Origin: Letharia columbiana
Taxonomy: Eukaryota; Ascomycota; Lecanoromycetes; Lecanorales; Parmeliaceae
Direction of reading: 5' to 3'
Assembly (NCBI RefSeq): GCF_014066305.1
Contig: NW_023501049.1
Coordinates: forward strand, 1,077,001 to 1,141,000
DNA length: 64,000 nt
This document shows positions 10,058 to 59,276 of this stretch, in pieces. The position numbers were made by a program, and so were the translations under genes. Under the pieces are notes generated by a model that saw only the letters and a list, made by a program, of their open reading frames with translations, had not been told where the DNA came from and did not search any database. The first letter of the stretch is position 1. Every line of letters starts with the position of its first letter.

Positions 10058-12794
10058 ATGCCAATAACGCCTCCTCTCAGTACAGGCTTCGGCTATGGCA
10101 TCGTACTGGGCCTGGGCTTTGCTTTTGCCCTCGGCATGATAACCACCACTTATGTCCTCAAGAGGTACCAGGCGGAGGTTCAGACCTCGGAGATGTTCAG
10201 CACGGCTGGAAGAACCGTTAAATCAGGTCTCGTTGCCAGTGCAGTTGTCTCTTCTTGGACCTGGGCTGCCACATTGCTCCAATCCTCTGGAGTGGCCTAC
10301 CGTTATGGAGTCTCTGGACCCTTCTGGTATGCATCCGGTGCTACTGTGCAGATCCTGTTGTTCGCGACTTTGGCAATCGAGTTGAAAAGGAAGGCACCTA
10401 ATGCTCATACCTTCCTTGAGGTTATTCGAGCTCGGTATGGAGTGTATGCTCACTTGGTCTTCACCGTCTTTGGTTTGATGACCAATGTTCTGGTTCGTCA
10501 AGACAGTTATGCCGACCTGAAGTCCAAGGCTAACGAGCGGCTGAAGGTGACCGCTATACTGCTAACAGGAGGCTCTGCTGTCGTAACCGCCCTTACAGGC
10601 ATGCCGACCGCAGCAGCCTGTTTTCTTTTACCGATTGGGGTTGTTCTGTACACGATTGCAGGAGGAATCAAAGCGACTTTTCTTACAGATTACGTTCATA
10701 CGGTCATGATTTTGATCATCATTTTTATCTTCGTGAGTCCTTGCACCCGGGAAATTCTGACTCAGTACAAGATTTACTGACCTCGATGTCTAGGCATTCA
10801 CAGGTAACTGTTGTTGCGGAACTAATTTTGTGAAGATCTGTTCACATTCATATAGCGTACACCACCGATGCCAATCTTGGAAGTCCCGCTAAAGTTTACG
10901 ACCTCTTGGTGACGGCTGCGAGGGACCACCCAGTTGCCGGCAACGCCCAGGGTAGCTACCTGACAATGCGGTCACAAGAAGGAGCCATTTTCTTCGTGAT
11001 AAATCTCGTGGGAAATTTTGGCACGGTATTCATGGACAACGGTACGTGCTTGGGATCCTTCCATGAATACAGGTCATCCCAAGGTACTTTCCTGACGATC
11101 CATAAAAGGCTACTACAACAAAGCCATCGCGGCGAGTCCTGTTCATGCCCTTCCCGGTTACGTGATGGGCGGCCTCAGTTGGTTCGCTATTCCATGGCTT
11201 GCGGCGACCACGATGGGCCTCTCGGCGCTTGCTCTGGAATCTAACCCAGTCTTCCCAACATTTCCTTCTCGAATGGCGGATGAAGATGTTACCGCGGGCT
11301 TGGTCCTCCCCTAGTAAGTGTTTTCTCCCCAGATGCGTACGGCCTTGCATGTCGTAAGACATATTCAGCGAGTACTAGTACTTCTCCATTATATTACATG
11401 CCTCAATTTCGTGCAAAGAACGACTGCTGATTCCGAACTTTGAAAGTGCTGCTGTTGCTCTTTTGGGAAAGGGTGGCGCGGCTGCAACGCTGCTCCTGAT
11501 CTTTATGGGCAAGTACATTCTCGGAGCGCTTTCTTCCTCTCACGGACTCCTTTGCGCGTTGCAAGATATTTTCTGAGAGCAAAAAAGCCCTTAATACCCT
11601 TTTGAATTGTCTCATCGCTCGGTGTTCTGCTCGGAAGGAAAGATGCTGACTCCAAAACCCTCATAGCTGTCACATCAGCCTCCTCTTCTGAATACATCGC
11701 TGTCAGCAGCATATTTACTTATGATATCTACCAGACATATTTTAACCCTAGGGCTTCTGGCAAGATGTTGATTAACATGGCTCATTCTTTTGTGATCGTG
11801 TATGCCATTCTACTGGCAGCATTTTCAACCGGGCTTTACTGTTAGTATCCATAGCAGTCTACCGGCAGATATCCACTAATTACTGTGCAGATATCGGCAT
11901 TTCCATGGGTTACCTATACCTGATGATGGTAGTTGATCATTTCGCGATAGTTGTGTCAAAGTCTCTAACGGCAAGACAGGGCGTTATTATATCGTCTGCT
12001 GTACTTCCAGCAGTTTTGACGTTGATGTGGAAAAAGCAGAATGTTTTCGCCGCGACTCTCTCCCCCATATTGGGCCTTGCTTGCTCCCTTATTGGTGCGT
12101 CCGATTGCCACATCTCGACTCCAGAAGACCAGTCAACTAACACAATACCGAAGCTTGGCTTGTGACTGCCAAAAAGGAGTTTGGCAACCTGTCTGTTACG
12201 AGCACCGGTAGCAATAATCCCATGCTGGCCGGAAACGTCGTCGCCCTGTTGTCGCCCCTTGTCTTCATCCCAATTTTGACCTATGCTTTCGGTCCCCAGA
12301 ACTACGATTACAAATCGATGGCTGCGATTCGTCTGGGCAATGACGAGGACATTGCAGCTGCGGCGCATACAGACCTGGAGGAGATTCCAGGTGTTACCGG
12401 CATGTCAGCGGCTGACTTTGAATCGGAACAAAAGAAGCTTCAACGGGCATCCCTCATTGCTAAGAGCATGACCGGGATCTTGACTCTTGCGCTACTCATC
12501 TTGTGGCCCATGCCCTTGTACGGTACTGGATATATCTTCAGCAAAAAGTTCTTCACCGGTTGGGTTTCCGTGGGTATATTGTGGCTATTCTGCAGCTCGT
12601 TCTGTGTAGGACTGTTCCCACTTTGGGAAGGAAGGCACAGCATGGCCAACACATTCAAGGGTATTGTACGAGACTTGAGCGGGAAGGGTGGGGCGAGTAT
12701 CAGAGGAAGGGCCATGGAAGGGAGCGACGGGTCGACATCGCCTAGGGAAGAGAGCGACAAGGTGGGCGAAGTCGCGATGGAGAAAAAAGAATGA
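10058..12794 (+). CDS. dur3: Urea active transporter DUR3 (sodium:solute symporter family), 10 exons
   Basis: Plasma-membrane urea/H+ symporter that scavenges urea and polyamines as nitrogen source. Start ATG 10058 gives [14 protein letters not shown]. Exons: 10058-10492, 10547-10732, 10794-10803, 10856-11041, 11109-11313, 11447-11508, 11667-11840, 11891-11928, 11980-12094 and 12154-12794, together 683 aa. Family signatures include [53 protein letters not shown] and [15 protein letters not shown], within about 14-15 hydrophobic helices and a hydrophilic tail. Exon 3 is only 10 nt (AFT plus one base). Intron 6 (11509-11666) uses a GC donor (ATGG|GCAAGT). Introns 5 and 6 (133 and 158 nt) belong to the introner-like family described separately; the other introns are 50-67 nt. 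Confidence 0.93.
11314..11446 (+). repeat. Introner-like intron copy (dur3 intron 5)
   Basis: 133-nt intron (GTAAGT...AAG) splitting a Tyr codon. Its 3' part GCTGATTCCGAA (11426-11437) matches the GCTGACTCCGAA block of the nucleoside-transporter introns beyond the branch-site core. The 5' half is diverged, so assignment is moderate. Confidence 0.5.
11509..11666 (+). repeat. Introner-like intron copy with GC-AG splice sites (dur3 intron 6)
   Basis: 158-nt intron. Its 5' end GCAAGTACATTCTCGG parallels the GTACGTACATTCCGG start of the MPP-beta copy. It shares CTTAATACCC (11590-11599) with the second nucleoside-transporter intron, and ends with GCTGACTCC (11645-11653) before the acceptor. The protein reads [12 protein letters not shown] only if the GC donor is used. 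Confidence 0.7.
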
Positions 12795-46815: not shown

Positions 46816-49755
46816 ATGTCAACCACACCGGGCTACATTGATGTCAGAGATCATAACTTTTCTCCTCAGCAGAATGTGATACAGAATGACGACCCAGCCC
46901 TTCAAAACTCCTATGAGCATCATCATGATCACGTGCACCATGATGCCCAGGCAGAGAAAGGTCGGGAAGACGAGCTCATCTACTCCTATGGTACAACTTT
47001 TGAGGGGCGGACTATCCCGCACCAGGATCCGCAGGACCATGATCTTCACAGAAAGCGGCATGCAGATATGGCAAAAGAGCCAGCGGCAGCCGTTGATCCT
47101 GAGCAAGGTACCATGAGCCCCAGTCGCTCTGAAGAGGATCCTCAAACCCACACCTTCTCGAACTTTTACAAAAGATACCGCATATTCTTTCATCTACTTG
47201 TTTGGATTGTCTTTACCGGATGGTGGATCGCCGGGTTGCTACTCCATGGCATCCATGACTCGTTAAGCTCGAATACTGGGTGGCTCAAACCATTCCTCTT
47301 CTGGCTTGCAGTTACCTTACGAATTGTTTTCTTCCACGTTCCCATTACTGTTGTCACGAAGCCCATACACTGGACGTGGGAGAAAACCGGCGTGCGTTTT
47401 GCAGAGCTGTTGCCGGAACGGTTCAAAATTCCACTGGCCGCTCTCCTAACCATATCCGTCTTTTTGATCGGCGGATTTGTCAGTCCCGAAAGTGAAGACA
47501 ATACTCGCGATAATCGAGCGGTGTCTCTATTCGGGCTGGCTGTCTTCATATTCGTCCTCTATGTGACATCACGCAATCGAAAGGCTGTGAATTGGCACAC
47601 TGTGATAGTAGGAATGCTAGTATGTATTTTCTGGAGAATGATCTTTCCTCTTTGGTACCAGGGTTTTATTTATGAACACTGCACCAGGAGCAAAGACTGA
47701 TCCAATAGCCCAGGTTCTTCCCATGAGGAATGTGTGCTGACTCAGGATTCTGTGTAGGTCCAATTTATTGTAGCCCTCTTTGTCCTGAGATCAAGCGTAG
47801 GATATGATATCTTCAGTTTTATTTCGGAACTTGCTCGAGATCTACTTGGGTTTGCGAACCAGGGAACGATATTCCTCACAGCGGAAAGTGTCCCATCAAC
47901 CCATTGGTTCATTGTTTCCACTTTACCGGTACGTTCATTTTCGTAGGACCTATGACGGACCGTTGTTCGAGTTGAGAGACATGTTTTTTTGAGATCAAAA
48001 GGCTCTTAATACCCATCCAGACTGTCCCACGGCTTAGGTCTTCGCTCTAGGAAGATTGCTGACTTCATACCATTTAGGCAGTTATATTTTTCGTGGCCCT
48101 TGTCCAACTCTGCTTTTACAATGGGATATTCCAATGGTTCATCGGCAAATTCGCTGTCTTCTTTTTCTGGTCTATGGTACGTACAGTTCGGGGCTGATTT
48201 TTCCTGATCGGTAGTACAAGACCTGTCTCGGGAGCAAAGGACCATGCTACTCTCGGAACCTGTCTTGCAACTCCAATCTCTGCCTCGAATAGACTTTGCT
48301 GACTCCGAAAAGAGAGTATCCGGTGCAGAAGCGGTGGTTGCTGCGGCCTCGCCATTTATTGGGCAAGGCGAGTCTGCAATGCTCATCAAACCGTTCGTCG
48401 AACATCTTACTCAAGCCGAGCTTCACCAAGTCATGTAGGATTTTCCCAGTCTGTTCCTTCATAGTAAATCCCTGATTCCCCAAGGTGCCTTGCAACTCAA
48501 ATTCCGACCTTGGAGACTCGATGCTAATTGCTGGTCAAATACTGCAGGTGCTGTGGCTTCGCTACCATTGCTGGCTCCGTGCTCGTCGCATACATTTCCT
48601 TGGGTGTCAACGCTCAAGCTCTCGTCAGCTCCTGTAAGTGCCTCATTAGAGATATTTCCTTTCATTCACATAGTTTTGAGTCGCAAGACGTTTCTCAAGG
48701 GGTTTCGACTCCCCAGACTTGAATAACCTTCGGACAAACGCTGACACCTAGACTGAATAGGTGTCATGTCAATTCCCGCCTCTCTTGCCATCTCGAAGTT
48801 ACGCTACCCTGAGACAGAGGAGACGCTAACCACTGGTCGAGTTGTTATACCCGACGAGGATGAGCATAAGGCTGCCAATTCTCTCCATGCCTTCGCCAAC
48901 GGCGCCTGGCTTGGTCTCAAAATCGCGGGCATGATCCTATCAACCCTTCTCTGTATTATAGCCCTGCTTGGACTAGCAAACGGACTTCTCACTTGGTGGG
49001 GAAGATATCTCAATATCAACGATCCACCCCTCACCGTCGAACTTATCGTGGGTTACATCTGTTATCCAATTGCGTTCCTCCTCGGCGTTCCGCGCAACGG
49101 AGGTAGGCACCTTTTCACATCATGCTTTCTTGTCCAGTATTGGTTCATGAGCTGGAGGGCATGTTGCTGGATAGGAACATGCTTTCCGAATCACCTCTGC
49201 CCTATAAGGCTTTCTGAATTTACAAATACTTCCAAAGAGAAGCTGACTCTGAGATCATGTAGACCTTCTGAAAGTTGCCCAACTCATCGGCACAAAGCTC
49301 GTTGCTAACGAGTTTGTTGCTTACACGGCCCTGCAGACAGACCCTGCCTATTCGGATATTAGCTCTCGCAGCAGGTTGATAGTGACGTACGCGCTGTGTG
49401 GGTTCGCAAACATCGGGAGCTTGGGAACCCAGGTCCGTACATTTCTCACCTAGGCTTTCCTATATGGTATTGGTATTTGGTCAAAGGATGTGTTTCGGGA
49501 GCAAGAGGACCTTTCTATTCCCGTGGCCGGTCTTGCGATTCCATATTCTGCCTCGAATAAGCAGTGCTGACTCCGAAATCCACGTAGATAGGGGTCTTGA
49601 GCCAGATTGCGCCTGGAAGGGGAGGAGATGTCTCAAGACTGGCACTTTCCGCGCTTATCTCAGGGGCTCTGAGCACATTCACAAGTGCGAGCATTGCAGG
49701 TATGCTAGTTACCGATCAGGCAGCTTACTTCACGCCGAGCGCTGCAAGTTCATGA
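46816..49755 (+). CDS. Concentrative nucleoside transporter (CNT/SLC28 family), 8 exons
   Basis: Imports nucleosides with H+ or Na+. Exons 46816-47619, 47758-47928, 48078-48176, 48313-48434, 48548-48633, 48761-49102, 49263-49432 and 49588-49755. CNT hallmarks: [20 protein letters not shown] (substrate/cation site with GQGE), [55 protein letters not shown] and [21 protein letters not shown] His/Asp-rich hydrophilic N-terminus of about 120 residues precedes the helices. All seven introns are long (138, 149, 136, 113, 127, 160, 155 nt), unlike neighbouring genes, and most share blocks with each other. Start ATG 46816 follows GGAACA. Pairing with the deaminase suggests uptake and breakdown of adenosine. 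Confidence 0.93.
47620..47757 (+). repeat. Introner-like intron copy (CNT intron 1)
   Basis: 138 nt. Holds GGAGCAAAGAC (47687-47697) and GCTGACTCAGGA (47736-47747) followed by GTGTAG, matching the middle and 3' blocks of introns 3 and 7. Confidence 0.7.
47929..48077 (+). repeat. Introner-like intron copy (CNT intron 2)
   Basis: 149 nt. Starts GTACGTTCATTTT. Shares CTTAATACCC (48005-48014) with dur3 intron 6 and ends GCTGACTTCATA (48058-48069) before TTTAG. Confidence 0.7.
48177..48312 (+). repeat. Introner-like intron copy (CNT intron 3)
   Basis: 136 nt. Starts GTACGTACAGTTCGG. Middle block GGAGCAAAGGACC (48231-48243). A 29-nt stretch at 48263-48291 is identical at 24 positions to 49531-49559, and the 3' block GCTGACTCCGAAA (48298-48310) is identical to 49566-49578. 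Confidence 0.82.
48435..48547 (+). repeat. Probable introner-like intron copy (CNT intron 4)
   Basis: 113 nt. The stretch 48488-48510 (core CTTGCAACTC) matches 48263-48285 of intron 3 at about 17 of 23 positions. Its 3' end differs from the other copies, so it may be shortened or older. Confidence 0.5.
49103..49262 (+). repeat. Introner-like intron copy (CNT intron 6)
   Basis: 160 nt. Its first 45-50 bases align with those of intron 7 (shared GCTTTC and GTATTGGT in order). The end GCTGACTCTGA (49242-49252) plus ATCATGTAG parallels GCTGACTCCGA plus AATCCACGTAG of intron 7. Confidence 0.68.
49433..49587 (+). repeat. Introner-like intron copy (CNT intron 7)
   Basis: 155 nt. Starts GTCCGTACATTTCTC. 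Contains GGAGCAAGAGGACC (49498-49511), CTGCCTCGAATA (49548-49559) and GCTGACTCCGAAA (49566-49578). It is the closest match to intron 3. Confidence 0.82.
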
Positions 49756-57503: not shown

Positions 57504-59276
57504 ATGGCCTCTAGGCGACTGGCGCTCAACCTGAATCAGGCTTTGCGTAGTCGCGCGGCCCTCAAATCAATTCAGCCCATAAGAGGTTTCGCAACTCCAA
57601 TCCACCAGGGCATCAATACCGAAAGCACAACTCTATCCAACGGACTGACCGTATGACTTACTCCAAATCAATTGCTGTTGGAAGCTTACGTATCCCTTAG
57701 ATTGCTACTGAGCATTCTCCATGGGCACAAACCTCTACTGTTGGTGTCTGGATCGACGCAGGATCAAGGGCAGAGACAGACAAGACCAATGGCACAGCTC
57801 ACTTCTTGGAGCACCTGGCATTCAAGGTAAATGGAAGTTTGCCTCTTCGCAAGTGTCTGCGAGCTCAACGTTGTGCATAGGGTACCAAGAATCGAACACA
57901 GCAGCAATTGGAGCTTGAGATTGAAAACATGGGAGGCCACTTGAATGCGTACACTTCTGTAAGGGTTACTTTTCACCATGTGTCGGAGCTGCACTAACAC
58001 TCCAATATAGCGTGAAAATACCGTCTACTATGCCAAGTCCTTCAACTCCGATGTCTCTGCTACAGTCAACATACTCTCGGATATTTTGCAAAACTCCAAA
58101 CTCGAGCCCCAAGCCATAGAGCGAGAACGTGATGTGATTTTACGAGAACAAGAGGAGGTCGACAAGCAGCTCGAGGAAGTCGTCTTTGATCATTTGCATG
58201 CCACCGCCTTCCAAGGTCAACCTTTAGGGCGGACCATTCTGGGACCAAAGGAGAACATTGCGAGCATCCAGCGGGATGACTTGGTCGGTTATATCACGAA
58301 GAATTATACTGCCGATCGTATGGTCCTGGTCGGCGCTGGTGGTGTCCCTCACAAGCAGTTGGTGGAGCTTGCGGAGAAGTACTTCTCCAATATACCAATG
58401 GAACCACCAACTAGAGCAGCTGCCTCAAGTGCTGCCGCTCAAAAGCAAATACCTGACTTCATTGGCTCTGAAGTCCGAGTGAGAGACGACACTATCCCAA
58501 CAGCAAACATCGCCATTGCAGTTGAAGGTGTGAGCTGGAAAGACGATGATTATTTTACCGCGCTGGTCACGCAAGCAATCGTCGGCAATTGGGATAGGGC
58601 AATGGGTAATTCTCCCTACCTTGGCAGCAAGCTCAGTACCTTCATCCACGAGAACAAGTTGGCAAATAGCTTCATGAGCTTTTCTACCAGTTACAGTGAT
58701 ACAGGGTAAACCATGAAACTACTCAGCCCTCCCTCCACCGGGCTTTGCTGACCCAAATCTTTAGGTTGTGGGGCATATACCTTGTTACGGAGAACAAAAC
58801 TCAAATCGACGACCTTGTCCATTTCACCCTTCGAGAGTGGTCCCGTCTTTCCTACAACGTTACTGAAGCCGAAACCGAACGAGCAAAGGCTCAGCTCAAA
58901 GCTTCCATCTTGCTCTCCCTTGACGGCACTACAGCCGTCGCGGAAGATATTGGCCGCCAGATCGTCACCACAGGCCGCCGCATGGACCCAGAGGAGGTAG
59001 AGAGGGTAGTCGGTAGTATAAGCGAGAAGGATGTCATGTCTTTTGCGAGGAGGAAACTTTGGGATCAAGATGTGGCAATCAGCGCTGTGGGGAGTATCGA
59101 GGGTTTGTTGGACTACAACCGGTACGTACATTCCGGACTGATTTTCCGTCTCCTTCCATCCAGTCTCTCTGCCTGACTCGCGAGACACTTCTGGGGAGCA
59201 AAGGTCAGTCGCCGCTAAGTTTTCTAATGCTGACTCCATACGCAGAATTAGGAACGACATGAGCCGCAATGCCTAA
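57504..59276 (+). CDS. mas1: Mitochondrial processing peptidase beta subunit (MAS1), 6 exons
   Basis: Zn-metalloprotease subunit that cuts presequences from imported proteins in the matrix. Exons 57504-57650, 57701-57826, 57881-57958, 58011-58705, 58765-59121 and 59246-59276 give 477 aa. A presequence ([20 protein letters not shown]) precedes [20 protein letters not shown]. The zinc site HFLEH is intact ([20 protein letters not shown]), as is the distal Glu region [14 protein letters not shown], so this is the catalytic beta subunit and not core protein 1 or alpha. The end [18 protein letters not shown] and [12 protein letters not shown] is typical. Introns are 50, 54, 52, 59 and 124 nt; the last is an introner-like copy. 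Confidence 0.95.
59122..59245 (+). repeat. Introner-like intron copy (MPP-beta intron 5)
   Basis: 124 nt, twice the size of the other introns in this gene. Starts GTACGTACATTCCGG then CTGATTTT, as in CNT intron 3. Holds GGAGCAAAGGTCA (59195-59207) and GCTGACTCCATA (59229-59240) before CGCAG. Confidence 0.75.

Follow-up and report, generated by a model that had tools for sequence, protein, structure and literature searches.

How does one fungal gene come to hold seven long introns that resemble each other, and by which step do such introns enter exons? These questions are raised by a nucleoside transporter gene in a 64,000-nucleotide (nt) stretch of the genome of the lichen fungus Letharia columbiana, called the window hereafter. 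An initial annotation had proposed that the introns of this gene are introner-like elements, that is, mobile and nearly identical spliceosomal introns. In the present study we find that the gene holds members of a large introner family with copies all over the genome, and comparison of the bases bordering these copies makes it likely that insertion needs a target dinucleotide matching the two exon bases beside the donor copy.

The gene encodes a CNT (SLC28/NupC-type) nucleoside transporter and was rebuilt from its reading frame. Removal of seven introns of 113-160 nt, as originally described (Table 1), leaves an uninterrupted frame of 653 amino acids with the three Pfam domains PF01773, PF07670 and PF07662, which aligns with solved CNTs and is 99% identical to the annotated Letharia lupina protein HO133_009316, of equal length, an indirect sign that the introns are spliced. 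Introns 3 and 7 have GGAGCAA(G)AGGACC and GCTGACTCCGAAA in common, and their top ungapped pair of 29-mers holds 25 identities rather than the 24 first reported. BLAST searches of the own genome gave 40 scored matches for each of these two introns, self counted. For intron 7, 12 of the 40 rows (again with self) span exactly bases 1 to 155 and the strongest non-self match reaches 80% identity across 1-155 (E 2.9e-33); for intron 3 the strongest non-self match has 79% identity (E 2.6e-30).

In order to compare all seven introns with the family, we used a profile built from 83 copies among which neither intron 7 nor intron 3 was included, and which was made strand-specific because the element is palindromic and an unspecific profile mixes the strands. 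This profile matched all seven introns in sense, on the plus strand. After removal of the splice signals, with 1000 dinucleotide shuffles for each intron, the interiors of introns 1, 2, 3, 5 and 7 scored above every shuffle and that of intron 4 barely did so; the interior of intron 6 gave no match to the family profile. Comparison with shuffled introns upholds introns 1, 2, 3, 5 and 7 and, marginally, intron 4, and the sharing of blocks formerly attributed to introns 1, 2, 4 and 6 holds for 1 and 2, perhaps for 4, and not for 6, intron 5 belonging to the family instead. The CNT gene is a set of introner copies at graded stages of decay. Repeated invasion, which had been claimed for this one gene, holds for the family; the CNT copies are, however, of very unequal strength, and at least three further loci of about 3 kb (L015, L014 and L027) hold up to four profile matches each. 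The claim is weakened further by the CNT protein models of Alectoria sarmentosa, A. fallacina and Usnea florida, where breaks seen by eye coincide with the places of introns 2, 3 and 4 in the protein; this hints that the three are present in other Parmeliaceae and that some CNT introns may be older than Letharia.

The search of the genome for further matches, which had been named as a check on the introner proposal, returned many, and the family proved to be genome-wide. When 3 mismatches were allowed, a pattern of the 22-nt 3' end was found at 138 genome sites, 69 per strand, versus 0 for the reversed control, and the 21-nt 5' end at 87 sites versus 1; a variant of the 3' pattern gave 106 sites, overlapping with the set of 138, versus 0. 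Two copies on different contigs match at E 1.2e-57. Unrelated introns made alike by shared splice signals and chance may account for CNT intron 6 and in part for intron 4, but for the family as a whole this explanation is refuted by the end-pattern counts and by the latter pair, and we assign it virtually no weight. The sites were read in three rounds of 118, 26 and 23, the last being a second sample chosen by another pattern; the matches listed were 100 of the 138 for the 3' pattern and 100 of the 106 for its variant. Full-length family copies with differing flanks numbered 84 and later 96, with GT and AG ends as the entry condition for both sets. Left out of the flank counts were 34 of the first 118 sites, which were not full length, lacked GT/AG at the aligned ends, lay near the end of the locus or had duplicate flanks (L033, L087, L090 and L132), as well as 14 of the 26 later sites and 11 of the 23 in the second sample. 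The first tree holds 83 of the 84 copies, and the alignment used for base pairing 57. Other copies match the one in L022 over 155 nt with identities reaching 92%. The hosts are unrelated, Pfam domains being carried by 8 of 10 peptides obtained by joining the exons.

Several observations on the copies may be recorded here. L068, L070, L077, L127 and L168 form a longer and more diverged subfamily, of about 205 nt by eye, with terminal sequences in common. In two loci a pair of introners abuts, AG to GT, without an intervening exon (L027, about 1220-1596, and L170/L144, C29:218748 to about 219047), and the first introner of L027 shows an apparent internal duplication. An identical or nearly identical introner with its flanks occurs on two contigs in L032/L033, L086/L087, L088/L090, L072/L132 and L119/L130; these copies are possibly haplotigs, which would fit the triploid-like thalli described in Letharia (PMC10512270), or duplications.

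The bases immediately outside the introns carry the evidence on insertion. Writing the exon bases at -1 and +1 on both sides of a caret, the 96 copies comprise 31 C^A, 21 G^A, 16 G^G, 9 G^C, 6 T^G, 3 A^T, 3 G^T, 2 A^G, 2 T^A and one each of A^A, C^G and A^C. The two positions are associated (chi-square P 2e-8; 0 of 5000 permutations), a C at -1 being accompanied by an A at +1 in 25 of 26 cases among the 84 copies and in 6 of 6 among the 12 further ones. When the bases were placed on a maximum-likelihood tree made from intron columns only, and their changes compared with 300 shuffles, the -1 base required 18 changes versus 39.9 in the shuffles, the +1 base 15 versus 37.0 and the dinucleotide 28 versus 57.6, with none of the shuffles as low for the last; the earlier tree of 83 copies had given z values of -7.1 at -1 and -9.5 at +1. 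From -6 to -3 and from +2 to +6 there was no clear tree signal in the 96 copies, nor out to 12 bases with the 83. Both flank bases are equal between nearest neighbours for 53 of the 96 copies (expected 18.8), and equality at -2 and +2 is found for 34 (expected 26.6) and 27 (expected 24.7), respectively. The dinucleotide is the same in 65% of the 49 pairs less than 12% divergent and in 10% of the 1573 pairs at 30-40% divergence. In the second sample 6 of 12 nearest partners agree in both bases, versus 1.9 at random (P 0.0065). Different lineages carry different dinucleotides, namely C^A, G^G, T^G, A^T and G^C.

C^A makes up 32% of the copies, whereas CA accounts for 7.6% of the dinucleotides in three coding sequences of the window. 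At the three C^A sites that could be checked against solved homologues (a Q in malic enzyme, a Q in Rab11 and the D^K border in phosphomannose isomerase) the CA-coded residues are conserved; the dinucleotide is therefore probably older than the intron, and C^A would have been present before insertion. By the same three sites, tags that add or replace exon bases are disfavoured. The inheritance of the border points to a copying machinery that makes use of, or recognises, the bases adjoining the intron.

The unit itself is a canonical GT-AG intron of typically about 155 nt, whose consensus starts with GTACGTACATTTCGGAG and ends with GCTGACTCCGAAATCTGCGTAG; the terminal repeat of the consensus includes what we take to be the branch-site motif. 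Aligned with its own reverse complement, the consensus matches across bases 2-154, and is thus an imperfect palindrome from the second to the second-last base. The fold of the L022 copy has an energy of -51.6 kcal/mol (z -5.97), and none of 200 shuffles is as stable. At least 8 base pairs join the first 20 nt to the last 20 in 73 of the 84 copies, and the fold z is -2 or lower in 58 of them. Fold z and similarity to the consensus are correlated (Spearman -0.33, P 0.002), the more similar copies being weakly more stable; in CNT intron 7 the hairpin is lost (z 0.86). When the L022 fold is counted on the alignment of 57 copies, 82.4% of the pair cells are paired, versus 36-46% when the fold is slid along it, and in the terminal helix 88.9% are. 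Consensus folding of the same 57 copies returned no structure. On this modelling, the RNA (or single-stranded DNA) of the unit is predicted to be able to form one long hairpin with the terminal Gs adjacent.

Insertion is seamless at the level of the encoded proteins. Once the element is taken out, the frame that stays open across the joined exons extends further in sense than in antisense in 36 of 43 loci, a number that includes one duplicated locus and CNT twice. In 7 of the 10 joined-exon peptides a Pfam domain spans the junction (Ras, Usp, FMO-like, CLN3, phosphomannose isomerase, amino-acid permease and P450), in one the malic enzyme domain starts at the junction, and two are without a domain. 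Alignment with solved homologues of malic enzyme, Rab11 and phosphomannose isomerase shows no gap across the junction; the junction queries of L036 and L032 had no PDB match. Furthermore, all of 24 additional profile matches lying within 1.5 kb of a first copy, in 15 loci of about 3 kb, have the orientation of that copy; two of the three matches in L027 may be a single intron, and the count omits seven re-matches to CNT via L009 and L038, which are also co-oriented. No target-site duplication was seen by eye and in base counts, made without a dedicated program, among the 84 and then the 96 copies. At the ends of the C^A copies (31 of 96) no duplication is possible, and a G at -1 or +1 leaves an ambiguity of 1 nt. 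A duplicated TA around the palindrome was rejected by reasoning, as splicing would then leave a frameshift. Among 41 loci with a stretch of at least 200 nt, the intron is in phase 1 in 20, in phase 2 in 11 and in phase 0 in 10; CA is not commoner in phase 1 (113 of 373 in the three coding sequences of the window).

A requirement for matching flanks would most likely be realised in one of two forms, in both of which the insertion step would test the bases adjoining the donor against those of the target. In one, a protected hairpin intermediate would retain roughly one exon base on either side and join through single-base matches; in the other, the machinery would choose a target dinucleotide that differs among the lineages of the element. 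The data fail to separate the end-base hairpin from the lineage-specific machinery. With a chance that we put just short of even, what moves is, rather than the excised intron, a hairpin with one exon base per end, or one that otherwise encodes the target dinucleotide, and its bases must match the target. The copies lie in exons without a seam and in the sense orientation, and with decay they come to look like ordinary introns, as in the CNT gene.

A number of results weigh against this proposal. The copies were collected through end patterns and BLAST and hence are no random sample. The memory is imperfect, as among the 96 nearest-neighbour pairs one flank base differs in 28 and both differ in 15, and L025 and L031, the closest pair in the tree (about 2.5% apart), differ at +1. 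A weak signal at -2 (44 changes versus 50.5, 3 of 300 shuffles) blurs the restriction to the two adjoining bases, and agreement at -1 by itself did not exceed chance in the second sample (7 of 12, P 0.25). G at -1, found in 49 of the 96 copies, is favoured by splicing anyway. We found no positions within the element tied to the flank dinucleotide by mutual information or by independent pairs, neither of which had usable power, and no empty allele in the own assembly when the joined flanks of the 24 most consensus-like of the 96 copies were searched. With respect to the hairpin, two of five pairing measures failed to exceed the shuffles: pairs changed on both sides were reached by 385 of 500 shuffles and further pair types by 145 of 500. 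The covariation score of the 57 copies was reached by only 2 of 500, with a slight excess over the shuffles, and G-U pairs and transition patterns gave no sign of a constraint specific for RNA (P 0.34).

Exon bases beside splice sites influence splicing, and the inherited border might thus arise by selection after random insertion, each lineage splicing well, and surviving, only in its own -1/+1 context. The predominance of G at -1 agrees with this explanation, which we nevertheless hold to be unlikely: C^A is several times more frequent among the copies than CA in the coding sequences, and C at -1 would be an unfavourable donor context. In the usual model for ascomycete introner-like elements, described by Gozashti 2022 (PMC9860276) and in the discussion of Fekete 2021 (PMC8469720), an excised lariat is reverse-spliced into DNA or RNA, and its targets are random or weakly preferred. 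The model agrees with the seamless insertion of the copies, their sense orientation and GT..AG ends, and the absence of a visible target-site duplication. However, the excised lariat carries no exon base and cannot transmit a memory of -1 and +1, so that lineage-specific bases are not predicted, and the C^A of the most consensus-like lineage would be a poor splice-site context; reverse splicing appears rather unlikely as the source of this family.

Terminal and full-length inverted repeats are what a non-autonomous DNA transposon, that is, an introner resembling a miniature inverted-repeat transposable element (MITE), would bring along, and target-site duplications (TSDs), terminal inverted repeats (TIRs) or both are present in 59.2% of 130 judgeable introner families (Gozashti 2022, PMC9860276). 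Such an origin is quite unlikely here, as no TSD was seen in either copy set and the neighbouring copies are without exception co-oriented; furthermore, no longer version bearing the same ends came to notice in a search by end patterns, in which intergenic copies were not sought as such. Filling of random double-strand breaks with intron RNA, proposed by Fekete 2021 (PMC8469720) and 2025 (PMC12403724), accounts for seamless insertion and for paired ends, but at random break sites inherited -1 and +1 bases are not expected. We regard it as improbable, and it survives only if the end bases of the filler must match the break, in which case it becomes a form of the flank matching that we favour.

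Helitrons have a 5' TC, a 3' CTRR, a hairpin and an A-T target, and make no target-site duplication. The Letharia family resembles them in the lack of a visible duplication, the target dinucleotide and the hairpin; unlike Helitrons, its ends are GT..GTAG, its dinucleotide varies by lineage, with A^T in only 3 of 96 copies, and no autonomous partner was noticed. The link to the Dothideomycetes drawn in the initial annotation does not hold for the host, since Letharia is a Lecanoromycete of the family Parmeliaceae and belongs to a different fungal class. The introner-like elements of Dothideomycetes are likewise described as many similar canonical introns in unrelated genes that decay into ordinary introns (Collemare 2015, PMC4457414) and, according to PMC8469720, have inverted repeats or a stable structure and insert seamlessly, as in Letharia. 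They are reported to prefer AG/GY sites (cited in PMC8469720), whereas the Letharia dinucleotides are lineage-specific and inherited, and in two species they include pairs of 98-99% identity, to be compared with a top match of 92% for L022 and a closest tree pair about 2.5% apart.

In Hypoxylaceae and Xylariaceae, the internally symmetrical sister introns and the [D1,2] stwintrons (PMC8469720, PMC12403724) are also reported to have terminal inverted repeats that bring the terminal Gs together; as in Letharia, they are seamless, in sense only and without target-site duplication, and their symmetry fades with age. The Letharia copies are single introns, not twin introns like stwintrons. An internal intron splitting the external donor, which defines [D1,2] stwintrons, was not seen, the copies being single GT..AG units and the abutting pairs adjoining each other; nesting was not searched systematically. 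Fekete and co-workers report random sites, with the 15 exon bases at the border free of any pattern (2021, PMC8469720) and no border bias (2025, PMC12403724), whereas in Letharia -1 and +1 are non-random and inherited. Introners with TIRs and TSDs in algae and other eukaryotes (PMC9860276) also consist of similar introns with inverted repeats throughout the genome; in Letharia, by contrast, no target-site duplication was seen and both splice sites lie within the unit. Ascomycete introner families are, according to Gozashti 2022 (PMC9860276), without TIRs and TSDs, whereas the Letharia family has inverted repeats. In the open-access literature, supplements excluded, we found no account of this family or of introners in lichens, Lecanoromycetes or Parmeliaceae, and within that range the suggestion of an undescribed family stands. 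By its sequence features the family would be of a known kind, an introner, with inverted repeats and an inherited border as distinguishing traits.

Three more introns of the window resemble the family (Table 1). Two are in the same transporter-like gene, and the third lies near the end of a gene whose product, judged by a protein motif, presumably resembles the beta subunit of mitochondrial processing peptidase.

Table 1. The CNT gene, its introns and other family-related introns in the window (positions in the window; flank, exon bases at -1^+1; interior, profile score after removal of splice signals).
Feature	Position (strand)	Length (nt)	Phase	Flank	Profile E	Interior	Assignment
CNT gene	46816..49755 (+)						nucleoside transporter, 8 exons, 653 aa
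CNT intron 1	47620..47757 (+)	138	0		2.2e-6	8.8 bits; 0/1000 shuffles equal	decayed family member
CNT intron 2	47929..48077 (+)	149	0		2e-6	14.8 bits; 0/1000 shuffles equal	decayed family member
CNT intron 3	48177..48312 (+)	136	0	G^A	2.2e-29		clear family member
CNT intron 4	48435..48547 (+)	113	2		0.0016	5.4 bits; shuffle maximum 4.9	probable remnant, marginal
CNT intron 5	48634..48760 (+)	127	1		9.5e-5	20.2 bits; 0/1000 shuffles equal	decayed family member
CNT intron 6	49103..49262 (+)	160	1		0.012	no match	resemblance to family by splice signals only
CNT intron 7	49433..49587 (+)	155	0	G^A	1.3e-33		full-length member, hairpin decayed
Intron, transporter-like gene	11314..11446 (+)	133			0.038		possible decayed member; frame restored ...LVLPYAAVALL...
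Intron, same transporter-like gene	11509..11666 (+)	158		G^C	2.3e-15		family-derived, GC donor (GC-AG border); frame restored ...LLLIFMAVTSA...
Intron near gene end	59122..59245 (+)	124		G^A	4.5e-5		family-derived; frame restored

The origin of spliceosomal introns, and the movement of fungal introners without duplications, are the subject of competing models, namely reverse splicing, DNA transposition and break filling. A heritable exon signature at -1 and +1 records the insertion step in a measurable form. It separates the models where the flanks of the donor matter from those where they cannot, and published introner families allow it to be examined with existing data. If the proposal is true, fungal introners would spread by flank matching rather than by reverse splicing of a lariat, and target specificity would evolve between lineages. 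A lichen fungus with at least 138 sites, together with decayed copies such as those in the CNT gene, would show that in a further fungal class, too, introners give rise to ordinary introns.

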